Shown here: one piece after another, positions 55,622 to 64,000 of the stretch
Numbering within the stretch: the first letter of the stretch is position 1
Layout: each line of letters starts with the position of its first letter
Origin: Thalassococcus sp. S3
GTDB lineage: Bacteria; Pseudomonadota; Alphaproteobacteria; Rhodobacterales; Rhodobacteraceae
Length of the DNA stretch: 64,000 nt
Direction: 5' to 3'
Assembly (NCBI RefSeq): GCF_004216475.1
Contig: NZ_CP022303.1
Location: 496,001 to 560,000, forward strand
Program-made: the position numbers and the translations under genes
Notes under the pieces: generated by a model
What the model saw: only the letters and a program-made list of their open reading frames with translations
Database searches by the model: none
What the model was told of the DNA's origin: nothing

Positions 55622-56095
55622 TCATGTCAGCTTAACTTTGCTGTGCAGCACACCATCAGCATCGCCGTAGAGCCAGTCGCCGGGTATTATCTCGACACCG
55701 CCGATATGGATTGGACATTCAGTTTTTCCCCAACCTTCTTTTGCACTTTTGACGGGGCTGGTGGCCAACGCGAACACAAGCGTGTCCATGTCTGCAATCT
55801 CCACACTATCGCGGATCGCAGCATTGAGTACGATCCCGGCCCAACCATTGTCGATGGCGAGTTGCGCGAGCATGTCGCCCAATAGCGCGATCCGAGTGGA
55901 GCCGCCGCCATCAACGACTAGAATGCGGCCTTCCCCGGGTGTCTCCAGCTGAGCTCGGACGATCGTGTTGTCTTCAAAGCACTTCACGGTTTGAACCGGT
56001 CCGGCAAAATGGGTTTTCGTTCCGAACTGACGAAGAGGTAGGTGGATCAGTGAGAGCTTTTCAGCGTGATTATCAATCAAGTCAGCGGTTTTCAT
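55622..56095 (-). CDS. RraA-like protein (HMG/CHA aldolase or decarboxylase family)
   Basis: 157 codons from ATG 56095. VVDGGGSTRIALLGDMLAQL, DNGWAGIVLNAAIRDS (the Arg-Asp pair that binds metal and substrate in HMG aldolases) and WGKTECPIHIGGVEIIPGDW match the RraA fold. Members are either RNase E inhibitors or divalent-metal aldolases and oxaloacetate decarboxylases. At the end of a sugar-acid operon (6 nt after otnC) an enzymatic role is more likely than RNase control. Confidence 0.8.
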   Translation of the reverse strand: MKTADLIDNHAEKLSLIHLPLRQFGTKTHFAGPVQTVKCFEDNTIVRAQLETPGEGRILVVDGGGSTRIALLGDMLAQLAIDNGWAGIVLNAAIRDSVEIADMDTLVFALATSPVKSAKEGWGKTECPIHIGGVEIIPGDWLYGDADGVLHSKVKLT

Positions 56096-56101
56096 GGGTC
56101 C

Positions 56102-56743
56102 TCACATCTTGGCAAAGCTGCGTTGCAGGTCGGCGACGGCTTCATCACTCAGCAATCGGGCTCTCATGCCTTGCGTGATCATCAGCAATTTCGCAGTTTC
56201 TTCCAGCTCCTCAGCGGCGCAGACCGCCGAGAACAAGTCCTTGCCACTGACGACCGGCCCGTGATTGGCGAGCAGCACGGCGGTATAGTCGCCATTCAGT
56301 TCAGCAATCATCTCACCCGCCCTCGGATCGCCAGGCTTGACATAAGGCACAAGTTTCACGGTGCCCACGCGCATGACGACATAGGGCGTCAAAGGTGGAA
56401 TGCAGTTGTCGGGATCAGTGTCCTCGAGACAAGACAATGCTGTGGCCCATGTGGAATGGAGATGCACCACTGCGCCACAGTGTGGCCGGGATTCATAGAA
56501 CGCACGATGCAGAAAGGACTCCTTGGTCGGCTTGTCGCCGCCAATGTGATTTCCCTGAGCATCCAGCTTGGAAATTCTTTCAGGGTCGATCGACCCAAGC
56601 GTTGAATTCGTCGGCGTCATCAGGATGTCATCACCAACCTTTGCCGAGACATTGCCCGCGGTACCAACGCTTAAGCCGCGCCGAAACAGCGAAGCACAGA
56701 GTTCCGCCATTTGTAGGCGCAATTCTCGTTCATTCAAAGTCAC
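56102..56743 (-). CDS. otnC: Class II aldolase, 3-oxo-tetronate 4-phosphate decarboxylase (OtnC-like)
   Basis: 213 codons from GTG 56743, overlapping the otnK stop by 4 nt. Zinc ligands His94 and His96 in VVHLHSTWAT, His161 in LLANHGPVVSG and acidic Glu75 (PTKESFLHR) are present; GTAGNVSAKVGDDILMTPTN binds phosphate in the family. Beside a DUF1537 kinase such proteins release CO2 from 3-oxo-tetronate 4-phosphate to give dihydroxyacetone phosphate (established for OtnC). Specificity is inferred from context. Confidence 0.85.
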   Translation of the reverse strand: MTLNERELRLQMAELCASLFRRGLSVGTAGNVSAKVGDDILMTPTNSTLGSIDPERISKLDAQGNHIGGDKPTKESFLHRAFYESRPHCGAVVHLHSTWATALSCLEDTDPDNCIPPLTPYVVMRVGTVKLVPYVKPGDPRAGEMIAELNGDYTAVLLANHGPVVSGKDLFSAVCAAEELEETAKLLMITQGMRARLLSDEAVADLQRSFAKM

Positions 56744-58026
56744 GACGAACCCTCCATAATTTGGAGTGCCTTAGCGAAGAAATCTTCGGCTCCAAAGTTG
56801 CCTGATTTCAACGCAAGTGCGACCGGCTCATCGGTGCCGATAGTGAGCATGGGAACACCGGGATCAATTTCAGGTCCAAGTGTCATGGCAGACACGTCGA
56901 GCTGGTCCGTAATTGCCTTCGCAACGGCCCCTGACGTCTCGCCGCCAGCGACAACAATCCTGCGAAATCCATTCTCTACCAGCTGCTGCGCAGTTGTCGC
57001 GAAAAGCGCATCCAGCTTCGCTGATACCGCCTCACGGCCGTATTTTGATTGAAGGTCTTTCACTTCCTCCGGCGTACCGGATGAATAGACAAGAGGGGCC
57101 AGTCCTCTTTTGGCTTTGATAAACGCCAGCAGATTCGCGGCCGTCACCGTGTCGGACATGACGCCGGGTACATCGATCGCGAGGGTCGGATGCTTCTTGG
57201 CGTGTAGAGCGACTTGCCCCAGGGTCGCACCGGAGCATGACCCAGCGAGTATCGCTTCCGGTCCTGAACAAGCTGCAAATTGGACCCCGTCGCCTTCGGC
57301 CTTCCCAGCCCGAATGAAGTTGCGCGGCAAACCCAAGGCAATACCAGAACCTCCCGTGATAAACGGCTGGTCGGCCACTGTCTCCCCCAGAACGAGCAGA
57401 TCGTCATCCGTGACCGCATCCGCCACAATGAACCGATTTCCATTCATCATCTCAGCAGACAGGATGTTCTTTGTCTCGTGTACGCCAGCAAGGACCGATT
57501 TCAATGCAAGATGCCCGACTCTGCTCGTCGTTTGATGACCCAACCAGCGGCGCAGATCTGGGTCGGTCATCGGCGTGAGAGGATGATGCTGCATCCCAGA
57601 TTCACTCAGCAGTTTGTCGAAAACGAACAAATGTCCTTGGTAGACGGTGCGGCCGGTGGTCGGGAAGGCGGGGCACACCAGGACGCCATTCGCATTGAGG
57701 GCGTCTGCCAATGCGTCTGCGACCGGACCGATGTTGCCTTCCGGCGTCGAGTCAAAGGTTGAGCAGTATTTAAAGATGATCTGCTCGCAGCCTTGTTGTC
57801 GCAACCAAGCGAGCGCCTGCAAGCTTTCTTTGATTGCATCCTGCACTGCGGCCGAGCGGCTCTTGAGGGAGATCACTCCGGCCTCTAATGTCGGGTCCGC
57901 TGGGACGTTGGGGATTCCGGCAAACTGCGCTGTCCGCAGGCCGCCCTCTGGGGGAACACCTTTTGCAAGGGTGTTGGCGATGTCACTGGCGCCCGTGAAG
58001 TCATCCGCAATAACACCGATCAGCAT
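56740..58026 (-). CDS. otnK: 3-oxo-tetronate kinase OtnK (DUF1537)
   Basis: 428 codons from ATG 58026; longer in-frame starts fall inside the next gene. N-terminal substrate domain: MLIGVIADDFTGASDIANTL, FKYCSTFDSTPEGNIGPVAD, CPAFPTTGRTVYQGHLFVF. C-terminal nucleotide domain: GSCSGATLGQVALH, VYSSGTPEEV, RIVVAGGETSGAVAKAI. Phosphorylates 3-oxo four-carbon acids at C4 (family knowledge). Overlaps the racemase-like gene by 7 nt and otnC by 4 nt. Confidence 0.92.
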   Translation of the reverse strand: MLIGVIADDFTGASDIANTLAKGVPPEGGLRTAQFAGIPNVPADPTLEAGVISLKSRSAAVQDAIKESLQALAWLRQQGCEQIIFKYCSTFDSTPEGNIGPVADALADALNANGVLVCPAFPTTGRTVYQGHLFVFDKLLSESGMQHHPLTPMTDPDLRRWLGHQTTSRVGHLALKSVLAGVHETKNILSAEMMNGNRFIVADAVTDDDLLVLGETVADQPFITGGSGIALGLPRNFIRAGKAEGDGVQFAACSGPEAILAGSCSGATLGQVALHAKKHPTLAIDVPGVMSDTVTAANLLAFIKAKRGLAPLVYSSGTPEEVKDLQSKYGREAVSAKLDALFATTAQQLVENGFRRIVVAGGETSGAVAKAITDQLDVSAMTLGPEIDPGVPMLTIGTDEPVALALKSGNFGAEDFFAKALQIMEGSS

Positions 58027-58706
58027 GATACAGGACCTTTCGCATTCTTCTCTATCCGCCGACGCATTTCGTGAATGGCAGCCTCGGGACTGGTGAGGAT
58101 TGGAATTCTTGTCGCAGTCCGCACCTGGTCCGCCGCCCCCGCCATTGAGAACTGTCCAAGCATGATCACATCGGCATCCGTGACTTGGGACGCGCATTTT
58201 GCGATGAGTTGATCGTGCTTCAAATCATCTCCGTCACGTTTGGCGTCAAGCGCACCTTCGCAGAAATGGGATGTGATCTGTGCCTTGCTGCCGCGTGCTG
58301 CCGCTGACGCACGAAACTCATCCTCCATTCCGGCTGCTGCGGGTCCGAACGTCGTGATCATTGCAACGCGGTCTCCATGTGCGAAGGCAGCGTCGAACAT
58401 GGCCTCATTGGGTTTCATGACAGGAATCGGGCTGCCATCTGCGGCGTCTTCAATGGCTTCGCCAAAGGCGGAGCAGGTGAAGAGCACGCCCTGCGATCCG
58501 GCGCACTCTGCGTATTTCGCCAGACCTACTATACGGTCCCAGAGTGCAAGCGTGAGGTCATCCGACTTCTGCCGATCAATTGATAGACCTTCTTCAAGGA
58601 TCGTCATGGTCTCAGCCTCGGGCCAGAGTCGCGCGGCTGCAGTTTCGATGGGATCAACGGCGACACGCGTTGCATGTATGAGGGCGATGCGAGGACGCTC
58701 AATCAT
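58020..58706 (-). CDS. Asp/Glu racemase superfamily protein with a single catalytic-site Cys
   Basis: 228 codons from ATG 58706. RIALIHATRVAVDPIETAAA, GVLFTCSAFGEAIEDAADGS (Cys78), PVMKPNEAMFDAAF and ADVIMLGQFSMAGAADQV place it in the Asp/Glu/hydantoin racemase fold. The second catalytic Cys expected in the C-terminal half is replaced (LGQFSM), so a two-base racemase mechanism is unlikely; arylmalonate-decarboxylase-like or isomerase chemistry is possible. Similar proteins are sometimes mislabelled arylsulfatase. It overlaps otnK by 7 nt, tying it to the tetronate pathway. Confidence 0.75.
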   Translation of the reverse strand: MIERPRIALIHATRVAVDPIETAAARLWPEAETMTILEEGLSIDRQKSDDLTLALWDRIVGLAKYAECAGSQGVLFTCSAFGEAIEDAADGSPIPVMKPNEAMFDAAFAHGDRVAMITTFGPAAAGMEDEFRASAAARGSKAQITSHFCEGALDAKRDGDDLKHDQLIAKCASQVTDADVIMLGQFSMAGAADQVRTATRIPILTSPEAAIHEMRRRIEKNAKGPVSC

Positions 58707-58729
58707 GTGCCAACCTCTGAAAGAAAGAA

Positions 58730-58757
58730 GGTGACACCGACCGGAGACGGCGTCACC
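58730..58757 (-). other. Hairpin between dehydrogenase and racemase-like genes
   Basis: GGTGAC/GTCACC plus CCG/CGG inner pairs in the 80-nt gap, the only gap in the operon larger than 6 nt. It may stabilise or process the message after the first gene. Confidence 0.45.
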
Positions 58758-58786
58758 GAAAGCGCGGAGGGAGGGTCCGCGGGAAA

Positions 58787-59872
58787 TCAGGCCGCTATTG
58801 CTTCACGGGCAACAGCATCTGCCACAAAGCGCCCAAAAGCGTCTGTATTAATCGTGCCGCCAAGATCTCTTGTGCGCTTCGCCGGATCGTCAATGACAGC
58901 ATCAACAGCAGCCGCGATCGCATTGCCTGCATCCATCAACTTTTGAACACCACGCTGCTCTCCGAGCCACGTCAGCATCATCGCAGCAGAGAGAATGAGC
59001 GACGTGGGGTTGGCCACGTTTTTGCCCGCGATGTCGGGGGCGGAACCGTGTTGCGCTTGAGCACAGCACAGACCGGTTTCGGCATTGGCATTGATCGAGC
59101 CAGCAAGCCCAAGCGACCCTGAAAGTTCGGATGCGAGATCGGAGAGGATATCACCATAGAAATTGGTTGCGACCACAACGTCGTACTTTTCCGGCTGACG
59201 CACAAGCAGCGCCGCGAATGCGTCGACGATGAGTTCTTCCGTCTCGACCTCCGGAAAATCCTTCGCCACCTTGCGGAAGCACTCGAGGAACAGCCCATCG
59301 GTCATCAGAAACGAGTTGGCCTTGTGGATCGCCGCGACCTTTCGGTCGCGCTGCATGGCCAGCTTGAACGCCTCGCGGCAGATACGCATCGAGCCGTGCC
59401 GCGTAATTTTGCGCACTGATAGTGCCATGTCCGGATCAGGCATCATCTCACCGACCCCTTTGTGCATGTTGCGATCCGGGTAAAAGCCCTCTGTCGCTTC
59501 GCGCATGATGACGAGATCCATGCCCGCCGCCTTGTTGGGTAAAAAGTCACGCGAACGGGCAGGACGGACATTTGCGTAAAGATCGAGCCCTATCCGGAAA
59601 CCTGCCGAGACGTTACGACCGCCTTCTGCGACAGAGGGGTAGTCCATATGCGATTGGGTGCCCAGGATAACGCCATCGAACTCAGCCCGCGCCCGATCCA
59701 GAACCTCTTCACGCAAGGTGATGCCGTGCCTTTTAAGGCTGTCGAAGCCGGATTCTTCCTCGTGAAACGTCAGCCCTAGATCAAATCGATCGTTGGTCGC
59801 CTGCATAACTTGCAGTGTTGCGGCCATGATCTCCGGACCAATCCCATCGCAGGGCAGCGTCATGATTTTCAT
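58787..59872 (-). CDS. Isocitrate/isopropylmalate dehydrogenase family enzyme (tartrate/tetronate dehydrogenase candidate)
   Basis: 361 codons from ATG 59872, 5 nt after a GGAGGAG site. Beta-decarboxylating NAD(P) dehydrogenase: LPCDGIGPEIM, VRPARSRDF, MREATEGFYPDRN, AIHKANSFLMTDGLF (catalytic Lys), VVVATNFYGDILSDLASELS (metal Asp) and AQHGSAPDIAGKNVANPTSL. REATEGFY differs from leucine-pathway LeuB (RELTGGIYFG), so another 2-hydroxy-acid is oxidised. First gene of the sugar-acid operon; it may provide the 3-oxo acid for OtnK (inference). Confidence 0.82.
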   Translation of the reverse strand: MKIMTLPCDGIGPEIMAATLQVMQATNDRFDLGLTFHEEESGFDSLKRHGITLREEVLDRARAEFDGVILGTQSHMDYPSVAEGGRNVSAGFRIGLDLYANVRPARSRDFLPNKAAGMDLVIMREATEGFYPDRNMHKGVGEMMPDPDMALSVRKITRHGSMRICREAFKLAMQRDRKVAAIHKANSFLMTDGLFLECFRKVAKDFPEVETEELIVDAFAALLVRQPEKYDVVVATNFYGDILSDLASELSGSLGLAGSINANAETGLCCAQAQHGSAPDIAGKNVANPTSLILSAAMMLTWLGEQRGVQKLMDAGNAIAAAVDAVIDDPAKRTRDLGGTINTDAFGRFVADAVAREAIAA

Positions 59873-60166
59873 TTTTTGTACTCCTCCCGACCTGCTGGTC
59901 GCCTAGCTAACGCGTTTAGATTGGTCTTTTAAATATCAATATGCAATTTGCAATCCGAAAAAGCAATCACGCTCTACGCCTGATGAATGAGCGTTTGGCT
60001 CTGAATGGCCTGAATTGCGTATATATTCGAGTTCCTTTTTGCCTGTACAGGTTGTCGGTCAGGAAGTGGGGTACCCTTAGTCTGCATTTTTAGTTGACAA
60101 GATGCAATTCTTGTTCGTATTGCACTGAAAGTGATAAAAATGCAAAATGATCCAAGGGAGGAAACC
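59873..60166. promoter_or_regulatory. Divergent control region between the catabolic and transport operons
   Basis: 294 nt, visibly A+T-richer than its surroundings. It holds TGCAATTTGCA (59942-59952, perfect dyad), CCTGTACAGG (60042-60051, perfect) and the tctC promoter with its operator. TGCAA/TTGCA half-sites recur at 60103, 60120 and again near the GntR gene (63329-63339, 63389), suggesting one regulator. Confidence 0.5.
60094..60123 (+). promoter_or_regulatory. tctCBA promoter with embedded operator
   Basis: TTGACA at 60094-60099, 18-nt spacer, TATTGC at 60118-60123. The dyad ACAAGA-TGCAAT-TCTTGT (60097-60114) fills the space between the two boxes, an ideal repressor position. Confidence 0.55.
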
Positions 60167-61132
60167 ATGATCATGCGTCGAACCTTTACTCTGCTCGCAG
60201 CGGCGACTGTCGCTGCCGCACTGGCTGTGCCAGCAGCTGCCGAGGATTATCCATCCGAGCGATTGACCTACACGATTGCTTTCGGTCCGGGCGGTGGTAA
60301 TGACCGCATGTCGCGCACGGTCGTGGATGTGCTGCGGCAGTATGATCTTTACGGAAACGACATCGTGGTCGAGAACCGCGAAGGCGGCAGTGGCGCGGTT
60401 GGTTTCAGCTATGTCAGCCGGAAAGCGGGCGACCCGTATCGCCTGACCTCAACCAGCGGTAACTTCATCGGCACCCCACTCGTTGCCGACACGGATTGGA
60501 CCTATGCTGACTTTACACCCATTGGATTGTTGGCAAGCGACGCCATGCTGCTTGTCGTGCGCTCGGATTCGGATTTTAGCGATGTTGATACCTTTGTGGA
60601 CGCCGCCAATGCGGGCCGCGTGACAATTGCAGGCAGCGGGTCCGCTGGCCCCGAGCGCGTCACTGCAGCGCTCTTCGCGAAAGCAGCCGGGATCGAATTC
60701 GAGTATGTTCCAATCGGCTCGGGCGGTGAACTTGTGACCGCACTGACCTCTGGCAGTGTCGATGCGGTTGTTGCCAACCCGTCTGAAGTGGCCGGTCAGT
60801 TGGAAGCAGGCACACTGACGGCGTTGGCCTTCTCCGATTCCGCACGCAGCACGAACAATCCCGACGTGCCGACCTTCAAAGAGCTCGGCTACGACTTCAG
60901 CTTCTCCTTGCCGCGCGGCGTCGTGATGCCCAATGATCTCGACCCAGCCGTTCAGGAGTGGTGGATCGCAACCCTGAAGAAGGTCGTCGAAACCTCGGAA
61001 TGGCAGGAGTATCTGGTTAAGAACGGCATGTCCGGCAACCCGATCTGGGGTGACGAGTTCGCAAGCTATCTCGAAGAGACCAGCGAACAGTACCGGGCCA
61101 CGCTCGTTGAGATCGGCGCGATAACAGACTAG
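60167..61132 (+). CDS. tctC: Tripartite tricarboxylate transporter binding protein (TctC family)
   Basis: 321 codons from ATG 60167 with AGGGAGGA upstream; GTG 60131 and ATG 60140 precede that site and are rejected. Signal peptide to about residue 25 (ALAVPAAAE). Mature: YPSERLTYTIAFGPGGGNDR, IVVENREGGSGAVGFSYVSR, IAGSGSAGPERVTAALFA, DVPTFKELGYDFSFSLPRGV, the Bug/TctC pattern. Ligand may be a four-carbon sugar acid by context. Confidence 0.92.
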   Translation: MIMRRTFTLLAAATVAAALAVPAAAEDYPSERLTYTIAFGPGGGNDRMSRTVVDVLRQYDLYGNDIVVENREGGSGAVGFSYVSRKAGDPYRLTSTSGNFIGTPLVADTDWTYADFTPIGLLASDAMLLVVRSDSDFSDVDTFVDAANAGRVTIAGSGSAGPERVTAALFAKAAGIEFEYVPIGSGGELVTALTSGSVDAVVANPSEVAGQLEAGTLTALAFSDSARSTNNPDVPTFKELGYDFSFSLPRGVVMPNDLDPAVQEWWIATLKKVVETSEWQEYLVKNGMSGNPIWGDEFASYLEETSEQYRATLVEIGAITD

Positions 61133-61226
61133 CCGCAACGCGTTTCAGTGGGTGCAGGGAGACTGCGCCCACTGACAACCGAGAATTCAAATCTGCCTGA
61201 AACGATAAATCGGAAAGGGAGGTCCG

Positions 61227-61754
61227 ATGAAACAGTGGTTTGCAGCTGGTCTGCTTGTTTTGGCCGTTGGATACACGGCCTATGGTCTTAGCACACTGAC
61301 ATTACTGACATCCTCCGGGCGTCCGGCTGCCGGGTTCTTCCCGCTCGTTATCGGCGTGCTCTTGATCCTATCCTGCGCGGTCAACCTCTGGGGGGATCTG
61401 CGTGAATGGATAGAAGCAAAACAAACCGGCATCGTTGCAGTCCACCAAGCCGATCCAGAGGCGGAAGCCAAAGCCGATGCGCTCGGCGTGGACGCTCACG
61501 CGATCGATGGCGGCCCAGAATTCGGTCGGGATGTCCTGATCGCGTTTCTCTACATCTGTGGCTTCGTCGGGCTTCTGAACCTGTTGGGAGCGTTGCTCGC
61601 AATGATGGTCTTCATGTTTATCTTCCTGTTCACGTTCAATCGCCCGCACGTTGTCAGCAACCTGATCTACAGCGTCGCCTTGCCCGGCTTCCTTTACGGT
61701 CTCTTCAAAATCCTTCTGAACGCCTCGCTGCCTGTCGGCCCGCTCGGCTTTTAA
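61227..61754 (+). CDS. tctB: TTT transporter small membrane subunit (TctB)
   Basis: 175 codons with GGGAGG upstream. Four helices: LLVLAVGYTAYGLSTLTLL, AGFFPLVIGVLLILSC, FLYICGFVGLLNLLGALLAM and a C-terminal pair; a 45-residue charged loop lies in the middle. GRPAAGFFP is the TctB hallmark. 23 nt before tctA. Confidence 0.9.
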   Translation: MKQWFAAGLLVLAVGYTAYGLSTLTLLTSSGRPAAGFFPLVIGVLLILSCAVNLWGDLREWIEAKQTGIVAVHQADPEAEAKADALGVDAHAIDGGPEFGRDVLIAFLYICGFVGLLNLLGALLAMMVFMFIFLFTFNRPHVVSNLIYSVALPGFLYGLFKILLNASLPVGPLGF

Positions 61755-61777
61755 TCGTCCCCGAAAGGAAACGTCGG

Positions 61778-63316
61778 ATGCTCGCCGATATCGCTTCAAA
61801 TCTTGCCCTTGGCCTCAGCGTTGCTGCGTCGCCCGAAGGGTTTCTGTTTCTTGTCATTGGCGCGTTCCTTGGCATGATCGTCGGCCTGTTCCCAGGGTTT
61901 GGCCCGGCTGCCGGGATCGCTGTCCTGATCCCGATGACCTTTGGCCTCCAACCCACCATCGCGATCATCATGCTCGCCGGCATCTACTACGGCTCGATGT
62001 ATGGTGGGACGATCACGTCCATCCTGATCAACACGCCCGGCGAGTCTGCAACAGTCGCTTCGACAATCGATGGCTATCCCTTGGCCCAAAAGGGCAGAGC
62101 CGGTCCCGCACTTGTGATGCAGGCCATCTCATCGTTTTTTGGCGGCACCATCGGTGTGATCCTGATCACCGCACTTGCACCCTCACTCGCAAACTTCGCG
62201 GCGTCCTTCGGACCTTCCGAATACTTCCTGATCATCGCTGTGGGTCTGCTAATGCTCACCACGATGATGGGGAACAACAAATTTAAGGGGTTCATCTCTG
62301 CGCTGATTGGGTTTGCCATCGGAACAGTGGGGGTAGATGTTATGAGTGGCCAACAGCGCTACACGTTCGGCTCGCCTGAATTGATCGGCGGGGTCTACTT
62401 TGTTGCGGTTGCCATCGGTCTCTTTGGCATCGGTGAGTTGCTGCACTGCATCTTCAACGGCCAGCATCGCCAGCCCGCCAAACGTTTGCGGATCAGCTTC
62501 CGTGACAAGGAGTTCTGGCCCTCGCGCAAGGACTATCATGAGTCCCGCTGGACCTTCTGGCGCGGCTCCGCCATTGGCTTCATCGCCGGTGTCCTACCCG
62601 GCTCGGGAGCGACTCTCGGCTCGATCATTGGCTATTCCGTCGAGAAGAAAGTTGCGAATGATCCGGAGAAGTTCGGCAAAGGCGAGATGCGGGGTCTCGT
62701 GGCTCCTGAGGCTGCAAATAATGCCGCCTCCGCCGGTGCAATGGTTCCGCTTCTCTCCCTTGGAATCCCCGGATCGGGTGCAACCGCCGTCCTTTTGGGT
62801 GCGTTCCTCATGTGGGGTCTGCAGCCAGGCCCGCTGCTGATCGTCAACGACCCCGAATTCGTCTGGGGCCTCATCGCCAGCATGTATCTTGGCAATATGA
62901 TCCTGATCGCGATGAGCATCTTTGCCATCCCGCTTTTCGTGAAGTTTCTCGACATCCAATATGTGAATGTGGTGCCCGTGATCGTGCTCCTCTGTGTCAT
63001 TGGTGCGTTCGCCATCAATGCCAGTATCTTTGAGACTTGGATCCTCGTCCTCAGCGGATTGGTCGGCTTTGCCATGAAGTCCTACGGCTATTCCCCGGCC
63101 GCAACCGTGCTGGCGCTTGTCCTGGGCTCGATGGCGGAAGAAACCTTCCTGCAGACCTACATTATCTCGCAAGGTACCATGAACCTCTTCTGGGAGCGTC
63201 CGGTCTCTCTCGGGCTGTCGATCATCCTTTTGACGATCATCGTGGTGCCAATCCTGTTGTCCCTGCGCAGCCGAACAAAAGGTCGCCAAATAGACGCAAA
63301 CGGAGAGGCGTCTTAG
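61778..63316 (+). CDS. tctA: TTT transporter large membrane subunit (TctA)
   Basis: 512 codons from ATG 61778 with GAAAGGAA upstream. About twelve helices. IVGLFPGFGPAAGIAVLIPM and, in the second half, GVLPGSGATLGSIIGYSVEK are the paired family motifs; YYGSMYGGTITSILINTPGE and ANNAASAGAMVPLLSLGIPG are diagnostic. Sodium- or proton-driven uptake with TctC and TctB. Confidence 0.94.
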   Translation: MLADIASNLALGLSVAASPEGFLFLVIGAFLGMIVGLFPGFGPAAGIAVLIPMTFGLQPTIAIIMLAGIYYGSMYGGTITSILINTPGESATVASTIDGYPLAQKGRAGPALVMQAISSFFGGTIGVILITALAPSLANFAASFGPSEYFLIIAVGLLMLTTMMGNNKFKGFISALIGFAIGTVGVDVMSGQQRYTFGSPELIGGVYFVAVAIGLFGIGELLHCIFNGQHRQPAKRLRISFRDKEFWPSRKDYHESRWTFWRGSAIGFIAGVLPGSGATLGSIIGYSVEKKVANDPEKFGKGEMRGLVAPEAANNAASAGAMVPLLSLGIPGSGATAVLLGAFLMWGLQPGPLLIVNDPEFVWGLIASMYLGNMILIAMSIFAIPLFVKFLDIQYVNVVPVIVLLCVIGAFAINASIFETWILVLSGLVGFAMKSYGYSPAATVLALVLGSMAEETFLQTYIISQGTMNLFWERPVSLGLSIILLTIIVVPILLSLRSRTKGRQIDANGEAS

Positions 63317-63461: not shown

Positions 63462-64000
63462 ATGCGGACTAGCGACCTTCCCCAACGCATATCGCGGCGC
63501 CTCCTGCAAGATATCGCGGCAGGTAGCATCGAAGCCGGTCAGCACCTTGGCGCACAACAGCTGGCAGATCAATACGGTGTCTCCCGGACCCCTATTCGCG
63601 AAGCCATGAATATCCTTGAGGCCAAAGGCTTTCTCGTTCGACAGGAGAACCGGGGCTACTTCGTCGCCGACACTGATCCGGAAACCTTGACCGAAGTTCT
63701 GGACCAGCAGCCGGAGTCGCTCAACGATGCGTACCACCGGCTTGCAGAAGACTGGCTGACCGGACGCTTGCCAGAGGAAGTGACTGAGCAGTTTCTGCGT
63801 CAGCACTATAGTTGGTCAAAGGCCTGGACTAACGACATTCTGGTGCGCGCCGCCCGGGAAGGATGGATCGAGCGCAAAGAGGGTTATGGATGGCGCTTTT
63901 TGCCCGTCGCTAATACACCGGAAGCCTTCGATGAGATTTACCGGTTTCGCATGGCCATTGAACCCGCTGCGATGCTGGAGCCATCCTTTGAGTTGGATCG
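63462..64000 (+). CDS. GntR-family regulator with tandem winged-helix regions (partial)
   Basis: Open from ATG 63462 to the window edge (179 codons). Residues 5-70 are a GntR winged helix: RISRRLLQDIAAGSIEAGQH, LADQYGVSRTPIREAMNILE, and wing RQENRGYFVAD. Residues 88-152 read as a second, degenerate winged helix (RLAEDWLTGRLPEEVTEQFL, ILVRAAREGWIERKEGYGWR), then EAFDEIYRFRMAIEPAAMLE starts an FCD effector domain. It probably senses a sugar acid and controls the flanking transport and catabolic operons. The ribosome-binding site is weak (GAAGGAC, 15 nt upstream). Confidence 0.82.
   Translation, partial: MRTSDLPQRISRRLLQDIAAGSIEAGQHLGAQQLADQYGVSRTPIREAMNILEAKGFLVRQENRGYFVADTDPETLTEVLDQQPESLNDAYHRLAEDWLTGRLPEEVTEQFLRQHYSWSKAWTNDILVRAAREGWIERKEGYGWRFLPVANTPEAFDEIYRFRMAIEPAAMLEPSFELD

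Follow-up and report, generated by a model that had tools for sequence, protein, structure and literature searches.

Bacteria that degrade L-threonate and D-erythronate through a DUF1537 kinase use a 2-dehydrogenase (LtnD or DenD), the isomerase OtnI, the kinase OtnK and OtnC, as reported by Zhang et al. (2016) and relayed in PMC12540250 and PMC10580937. A three-step bypass for L-threonate (LtnD, 2-OtnK and 2-OtnC; Guo et al. 2024, as summarised in PMC12540250) also operates without OtnI and, according to the same text, keeps LtnD. That text further describes a related Arabidopsis fusion protein whose OtnC-like part is an F_bP_aldolase domain (PMC12540250). Here we describe a locus in a 64,000-nucleotide stretch of Thalassococcus sp. 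S3 (GCF_004216475.1, contig NZ_CP022303.1, positions 496,001 to 560,000 of the forward strand; hereafter the window) in which the genes for OtnK and OtnC stand behind genes for an NAD dehydrogenase of the isocitrate/isopropylmalate dehydrogenase family (Iso_dh; the protein is called DH below) and a protein with the aspartate/glutamate/hydantoin racemase fold (RAC). The OtnK and OtnC of the window pass the same equivalog cut-offs as those of the L-threonate/D-erythronate pathway; unlike that pathway, the operon contains neither a 2-dehydrogenase nor OtnI, has Iso_dh and RAC genes instead and is paired with a TctCBA import system. Its lack of LtnD likewise separates it from the three-step bypass, and its OtnC is an Aldolase_II protein of the 3-oxo-tetronate 4-phosphate type, unlike the F_bP_aldolase part of the Arabidopsis fusion.

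The D-threonate pathway combines the DUF1537 kinase DtnK with PdxA2, a β-decarboxylating dehydrogenase that falls within the broad class of PdxA/Iso_dh folds. The window resembles it in pairing a DUF1537 kinase with a dehydrogenase of this class, but its dehydrogenase belongs to PF00180, a separate OtnC is present and its kinase scores 114.1 bits with the DtnK model NF047819 against a cut-off of 450; the D-threonate route was rejected for the window because the kinase falls so far below this cut-off. For L-ascorbate catabolism in Ralstonia eutropha, Stack and colleagues (2020) are reported to have described a PdxA-type enzyme that carries out an oxidative decarboxylation, alongside a lactonase of the amidohydrolase type and a WD40-like protein. 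Sister loci of the window are in some cases similar in holding a β-propeller protein (a possible counterpart of the WD40-like protein) and/or a LigI-like amidohydrolase together with Iso_dh, but the window operon has no such partners and ends in OtnK–OtnC. The original prediction, made from the sequence of the window, had suggested that its combination of genes may be an undescribed branch, and our literature search, which could not reach most subscription papers, found no paper describing the DH–RAC–OtnK–OtnC–RraA set.

Recurrence of the gene set without LtnD, DenD or OtnI

Loci were fetched with the DH protein alone, and the best 80 of 295 confirmed stretches (65–93% identity) were analysed. 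They span alpha-, beta- and gammaproteobacteria, come mostly from Rhodobacterales and Pseudomonas (L083, for example, from P. putida NBRC 14671) and hence are not independent, and several are shortened by contig ends. Genes were labelled by phmmer or tblastn score thresholds of our own setting, with few queries per family; the queries for LtnD, DenD, DctM, glyceraldehyde-3-phosphate dehydrogenase (GAPDH), pyruvate kinase (PK), triosephosphate isomerase (TIM), aconitase (Acn), CitMHS, AbrB, PrpF and TcuA were verified against NCBIfam, those for LigI-like and Pgl-like proteins score below their family cut-offs, and SDR, LacI, LysR, SSADH and TRAP genes in the relatives were labelled by eye.

RAC was found in 71 of the 80 loci, OtnK in 62, OtnC in 51 and RraA in 39 (40 by tblastn), and RAC accompanied OtnK in all 62 OtnK-bearing loci. 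The original prediction had proposed searching genomes for the same gene set lacking ltnD and otnI; such sets were recovered repeatedly, no locus among the 80 holding OtnI, DenD or LtnD above threshold and one (L056) showing a weaker OtnI-like match. Fifteen control loci built around distant DH homologues (47–61% identity, L093–L107) contained no OtnK, no OtnC and a single RAC. A chance neighbourhood was therefore rejected, since the set recurs in most of the loci fetched with DH and the controls are without OtnK. Among 198 genomes of the window's family, a close DH occurs in two, including that of the window, and OtnK in 78; the 87% identical DH in this sample adjoins OtnK and is apparently on the same contig as locus L040. 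Eight DH homologues of this family at 50–57% identity are not near OtnK, which lies on another contig for five and has no match (E ≤ 1e-50) for three. At least 120 DH homologues, 86–92% identical, were among the matches listed, and RAC is less conserved, with 60–96% identity among 120 matches listed. Comparative genomics gives good support to the replacement of LtnD and OtnI by Iso_dh and RAC ahead of OtnK, and DH together with RAC probably forms an alternative front end that would deliver 3-oxo-tetronate in place of LtnD or DenD plus OtnI.

With a single query each for LtnD, DenD, the OtnI-like protein and aconitase, tblastn gave no match in the whole window or in the 12 kb past its right end. 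The earlier statement that LtnD and OtnI are absent thus holds for the locus and its immediate surroundings, where homologues just outside the window had been a concern, and fails for the genome. An L-threonate dehydrogenase (422 bits; cut-off 350) is encoded ~70 kb from the window at C1:629871-630764 (L201:7866-8765); its neighbours are a LacI gene and an operon for an ABC transporter, with no OtnK or OtnI beside it. In the same genome, contig C4 (46 kb) carries a LacI–DenD–TRAP–OtnK–OtnC–OtnI-like cluster (L003:6024-13783), whose D-erythronate dehydrogenase scores 365 bits (cut-off 325) and whose OtnI-like gene, the only OtnI match in the genome, scores 240 bits and so stays below its cut-off of 325. 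Inspected by eye, this contig holds other sugar-acid genes as well and may be a catabolic plasmid.

The genes of the locus are listed in Table 1. The predicted five-gene operon divergent from tctCBA was borne out, every gene being present on the strand expected and the Pfam matches of all named genes, including the three domains of the TctABC transporter (PF03401, PF07331 and PF01970), lying above cut-off. Transcription would follow the order DH, RAC, OtnK, OtnC and RraA, with overlaps of a few bases at the RAC/OtnK and OtnK/OtnC junctions, a gap of 6 nt between OtnC and RraA and one of 80 nt between DH and RAC; tctC, tctB and tctA, followed by a GntR-family gene, are on the opposite strand. 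The OtnK open frame reaches to 58197 and its start was taken at 58026. The GntR gene encodes 304 aa at full length in the genome, and a relative of it is present in 67 of the 80 loci. Within the DH–RAC gap lies a hairpin of 10 bp that has a T-rich tail (window 58757-58730, minus strand). Promoter and terminator scans of the region gave no more sites than expected by chance or found in shuffled sequence.

Table 1 Genes of the window locus, with positions counted from the first nucleotide of the window.
Gene product	Position	Strand	Supporting match
DH, isocitrate/isopropylmalate-type NAD dehydrogenase (361 aa)	58787..59872	-	PF00180, 267 bits
RAC, Asp/Glu/hydantoin racemase-fold protein with one catalytic-position Cys (228 aa)	58020..58706	-	PF01177, 53 bits
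OtnK, 3-oxo-tetronate kinase (DUF1537)	56740..58026	-	PF07005 and PF17042; NF043035, 531.7 bits (cut-off 350)
OtnC (Aldolase_II type)	56102..56743	-	NF043034, 303.2 bits (cut-off 250)
RraA-like protein with D-x20-R-D motif	55622..56095	-	NF006875, 195.8 bits (cut-off 136)
TctC solute-binding protein, divergent from the operon	60131..61132	+	PF03401, 111 bits
TctB	61227..61754	+	PF07331, 57.8 bits
TctA (open frame extends upstream to 61406)	61778..63316	+	PF01970, 508 bits
GntR-family regulator (runs off the window)	63462..64000	+	PF00392, 79.6 bits

Conserved residues of DH, RAC and RraA

DH reaches no NCBIfam equivalog cut-off, scoring 222.9 bits with the tartrate dehydrogenase model (TIGR02089; cut-off 470.4), 215 bits with that of 3-isopropylmalate dehydrogenase (TIGR00169; 353.2) and 259.3 bits with that of isocitrate dehydrogenase (NF006529; 510). 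A housekeeping role as LeuB or isocitrate dehydrogenase was rejected on these scores and on the presence of two other Iso_dh genes (37–39% identity) in the genome. Residues R93, R103, R124, Y131, K184, D217, D241 and D245 are invariant in the DH rows of the 80 loci (54 + 27 rows, one of which is an incomplete duplicate of the window DH). We take R93, R103, R124, K184, D217, D241 and D245 to be the malate-core and metal-binding residues, and Tyr131, which all 38 rows of the window type of DH retain, corresponds to the tyrosine that aids decarboxylation in isocitrate and isopropylmalate dehydrogenases. In isocitrate dehydrogenase, Tyr160 and Lys230 have known roles. Asp280, which we assume to be the NAD-type aspartate, is present in the window DH and in 33 of the 38 rows. 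The loop that reads the substrate side chain is polar (R86 N87 V88 S89) and, judged from alignment, appears more like that of isocitrate than of isopropylmalate dehydrogenase. The window DH is probably a β-decarboxylating dehydrogenase.

A second Iso_dh type, DH2, emerged from 49 OtnK loci (L146–L194) that were fetched regardless of DH, 30 of them with ~1.5 kb of flank and 19 picked from the higher-scoring matches. In seven (L158, L170, L177–L180 and L182), DH2 is the gene immediately upstream of OtnK, and the available sequence, 4.2 kb for L158 and L170 and 9.7–13.2 kb for the rest, contains neither RAC nor OtnI nor LtnD; L177 has a DenD-like gene, OtnC was not called in L177 or L180, and the OtnC of L170 is weak. 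DH2 forms a separate clade in a DH tree that had 10 of the 53 DH1_A loci and the window among its rows, and phenylalanine replaces Tyr131 in all seven proteins. DH2 would thereby be a better candidate than the window DH for a one-step C3 oxidation that leaves the carboxyl group in place, and it is a possible second front end before OtnK. Because DH2 directly precedes OtnK, Iso_dh enzymes can probably feed this kinase.

Cys78 and Ser187 are invariant in 48 RAC sequences. RAC therefore does not belong to the two-cysteine Asp/Glu type of racemase, the second catalytic position being Ser187 as read from alignment and spacing. Its earlier description as a single-Cys protein is correct for the catalytic pair and incorrect for the whole chain, which has further cysteines elsewhere. 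The AlphaFold model (pLDDT 92.5) adopts the Asp/Glu racemase fold, and its structural matches are to racemases, arylmalonate decarboxylase and maleate isomerase; as these cover three kinds of reaction, the fold is indecisive and was set aside as a guide to function. Single-sequence matches of RAC to WD40 repeats in the Protein Data Bank look spurious, and a profile search matched hydantoin racemase. Within the arylmalonate decarboxylase/Asp-Glu racemase superfamily, the Cys-first, Ser-second arrangement of RAC differs from the Gly74/Cys188 of native arylmalonate decarboxylase, as taken from the title of the Gly74Cys-Cys188Ser mutant entry 3ixl with positions equated without coordinates. One catalytic cysteine would fit better with a one-base reaction, such as isomerisation or decarboxylation with reprotonation, than with two-base racemisation. 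In L031 and L039 RAC is split into two open frames, possibly by a frameshift or sequencing error.

The D-x20-R-D motif, which we take to be the signature of relatives of 4-hydroxy-4-methyl-2-oxoglutarate aldolase/oxaloacetate decarboxylase, occurs in 37 of 37 RraA-type proteins scoring >100 bits in the related loci, and the RraA of the window is possibly a β-keto acid decarboxylase or an accessory protein. In L013, L024 and L040, RraA directly follows OtnK and the locus has no OtnC; here RraA might replace OtnC, acting as a decarboxylase.

OtnK lineages and gene content of the sister operons

The OtnK tree comprised 97 rows (all 66 OtnKs not linked to the window-type dehydrogenase, here DH1, 15 hand-picked distant DH1-linked ones, a random 15 of the 47 other DH1-linked ones and that of the window), with the C4 OtnK counted twice (L003 and L171), bootstrap values that had not settled and midpoint rooting. 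On it the DH-linked OtnKs require five label changes, all five forced by well-supported branches, and fall into a group of 17 from Rhodobacterales, Mesorhizobium and Granulosicoccaceae, a group of 10 from Pseudomonas and Arenicella, three Burkholderiales rows and a Halomonas OtnK standing alone. The Burkholderiales rows are intermixed with three rows labelled as having no front end (L091, L142 and L143). This DH is nevertheless present in the locus or the genomes of these three rows, elsewhere or just out of range, and four changes remain by inspection once they are relabelled. DH–RAC thus accompanies several OtnK lineages, and the pair has therefore acquired a different OtnK partner on more than one occasion. 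The group of the window's OtnK adjoins an 11-row group in which eight rows, representing seven different genes, are OtnI- or LtnD-linked and which includes the C4 copy from the same genome. Because DH-linked OtnKs are spread over several lineages and these neighbours are mostly OtnI/LtnD-linked, the substrate of OtnK is probably unchanged and DH–RAC probably makes that substrate. In L070, GAPDH, PK and TIM genes come after OtnK–OtnC, a tail in keeping with dihydroxyacetone phosphate (DHAP) as the product, and PK lies near OtnK–OtnC in some Pseudomonas loci. Two tandem OtnK genes were seen in L169 (G196:C38:7440-10015).

Sister operons such as those of L014, L020, L023 and L061 run in one direction as TctCBA, DH, RAC, OtnK, OtnC, RraA and an aconitase-family gene. 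The last is present in 31 of the 80 loci, and since each of the nine genomes tested carries at least one further AcnA, the locus gene is an extra copy; that of L025 falls below the aconitate hydratase cut-off (872 versus 945). Its presence differs with the type of TctA: where TctA is close to that of the window (>700 bits), aconitase occurs in 1 of 22 loci, and with the other TctA type in 20 of 33, three of the 13 without it being shortened stretches. CitMHS is found in 8, a LigI-like amidohydrolase in 13 and a Pgl-like β-propeller in 13 of the 80 loci. The aconitase, CitMHS/TctABC and lactonase-like genes, taken with the DH pocket, suggest that the substrate is a hydroxy-di- or tricarboxylate, sometimes perhaps taken up as a lactone. 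In pen-and-paper chemistry, aldopentarates, 2-carboxytetronate and 2-hydroxymethyl-tartrate (via 2-oxo-tetronate) reach 3-oxo-tetronate; trans-aconitate, hydroxycitrate, itatartarate and tartrate were set aside, as no such route could be drawn for them. In L079 (1571-5083), the aconitase-family gene and RAC are adjacent (~4 bases apart), which ties RAC to the aconitase step. DH homologues without RAC in L066–L069, L104 and L105 adjoin PrpF/oxalomesaconate-tautomerase-like genes, mostly with TctA, and relatives of the TcuA-type tricarballylate dehydrogenase are also present in L068, L104 and L105.

Proposed route and competing readings

We tentatively favour a catabolic route in which DH and RAC act as a front end with oxidative decarboxylation and OtnK and OtnC lead on to DHAP. 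TctCBA would import an acid, a hydroxy-dicarboxylate of five or more carbons, which DH would oxidise with NAD+ while removing a carboxyl group, as predicted from its retained residues. RAC would adjust the product to 3-oxo-tetronate by a 2-oxo/3-oxo shift, epimerisation at C2 or a further decarboxylation; OtnK would phosphorylate this to the 4-phosphate, OtnC would convert the latter to DHAP and CO2, and RraA would serve as an accessory β-keto acid decarboxylase. A broader version appears doubtful to us, namely a route resembling the tricarboxylic acid (TCA) cycle in which hydroxy-polycarboxylic sugar acids, perhaps frequently taken up as lactones, pass through an extra aconitase in some operons, an isocitrate-type dehydrogenase and the single-Cys RAC before OtnK and OtnC yield DHAP, with DH2 making the same intermediate without decarboxylation. 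The window would then be the version without its own aconitase.

Several observations pull the other way from decarboxylation by DH and RAC ahead of OtnK. Recognisable OtnC is missing from 11 of the 62 OtnK loci, and in 18 of the 80 loci the stretch examined holds no OtnK, RAC being present in nine of these 18. Elsewhere the genome itself encodes an LtnD and a DenD that exceed their cut-offs, as well as an OtnI-like protein; as neither OtnK nor OtnI adjoins that LtnD, the OtnK–OtnC of the window might also serve it. Tyr131 alone does not mark the DH subfamily, because the distant DH homologues keep the tyrosine too (15 of 15), and our literature search found no usable source for its role in decarboxylation. 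The window operon has no aconitase, its genome having one full-length AcnA-like protein, and Tct transporters carry many different acids. None of the three C5 candidates that fit uses the aconitase of the sister operons, and standard aconitase plus isocitrate dehydrogenase chemistry gave no route to 3-oxo-tetronate on paper; as no such route could be derived, the aconitase-bearing operons are left unexplained. Each chemical step assigned to DH, RAC and RraA, like the substrate, is inferred.

The alternative closest to the original prediction is that DH, as a tetronate 3-dehydrogenase, forms 3-oxo-tetronate in a single step and without decarboxylation, with RAC and RraA correcting stereochemistry or clearing by-products. 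The 3-oxo-tetronate type of OtnK and OtnC would suit it, and DH2 offers a precedent, preceding OtnK without RAC, OtnI or LtnD in its 7 of 49 loci. However, the window DH keeps the tyrosine that DH2 has lost, RAC would be superfluous in a one-step route and yet is present in all 62 DH–OtnK loci, and the aconitase, CitMHS and lactonase-like genes of the sister operons suit polycarboxylates. The part of the prediction in which Iso_dh and RAC take the place of LtnD/DenD and OtnI is retained; its non-decarboxylating C3 step is less secure for a protein that keeps the Tyr, the Arg triad and the Lys and whose sister operons include aconitase, CitMHS or TctABC and lactonase-like genes. Direct C3 oxidation of a tetronate by the window DH is possible but not favoured, and as an account of the locus we consider it unlikely. 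A more distant alternative, which we hold to be unlikelier still, replaces both LtnD and OtnI function for function, with DH as a tetronate 2-dehydrogenase and RAC as the 2-oxo-tetronate isomerase. RAC is indeed always present where DH and OtnK occur together and OtnI is absent, and its single catalytic Cys would suit a one-base proton shift, but DH has retained residues suited to a second carboxylate and we know of no keto-isomerase of the OtnI kind in the Asp/Glu racemase fold; of all the readings weighed here it seems the least probable.

Standing between these two in probability, and improbable in our judgement, is a role of DH and RAC, with or without aconitase, in feeding a citrate-, isocitrate- or aconitate-like acid to the TCA cycle, RAC being a cis–trans isomerase or racemase and OtnK–OtnC serving another part of the nutrient under a shared regulator only. 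DH has isocitrate and homoisocitrate dehydrogenases as its nearest solved relatives, maleate isomerase is among the proteins that share the RAC fold, and the locus aconitase of L071 (Pseudomonas) passes the aconitate hydratase cut-off (989 versus 945), which also weighs against the route we favour. Nine loci (L047, L054, L057, L058, L059, L060, L072, L074 and L079) have DH and RAC without OtnK in the stretch examined, that of L057 ending 660 bases after DH, and DH homologues of marine gammaproteobacteria lie near PrpF-like genes, one also near TcuA, without RAC. One tctABC of Ruegeria pomeroyi encodes a citrate transporter (PMC10130141). Against this stands the presence of OtnK, drawn from several lineages, in 62 of the 80 loci, as does the DHAP-compatible GAPDH/PK/TIM tail of L070. 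Furthermore, a genome-wide search for 16 of the 18 loci without OtnK gave a match in 14 and one over cut-off in 13, some of these OtnKs lying in LtnD/OtnI clusters and others with OtnC only, which lends weak support to the link between DH and OtnK.

OtnK–OtnC clusters are usually read as threonate or erythronate pathways. Should this kinase also be fed by Iso_dh-based front ends, the usual interpretation would be wrong for a gene set conserved in marine and soil Proteobacteria. There would then be a new class of growth substrate to name, the Iso_dh and single-Cys RAC subfamilies would be open to direct assay, and the Tyr/Phe contrast between DH and DH2 would provide a sharp test of the decarboxylation switch of the superfamily.

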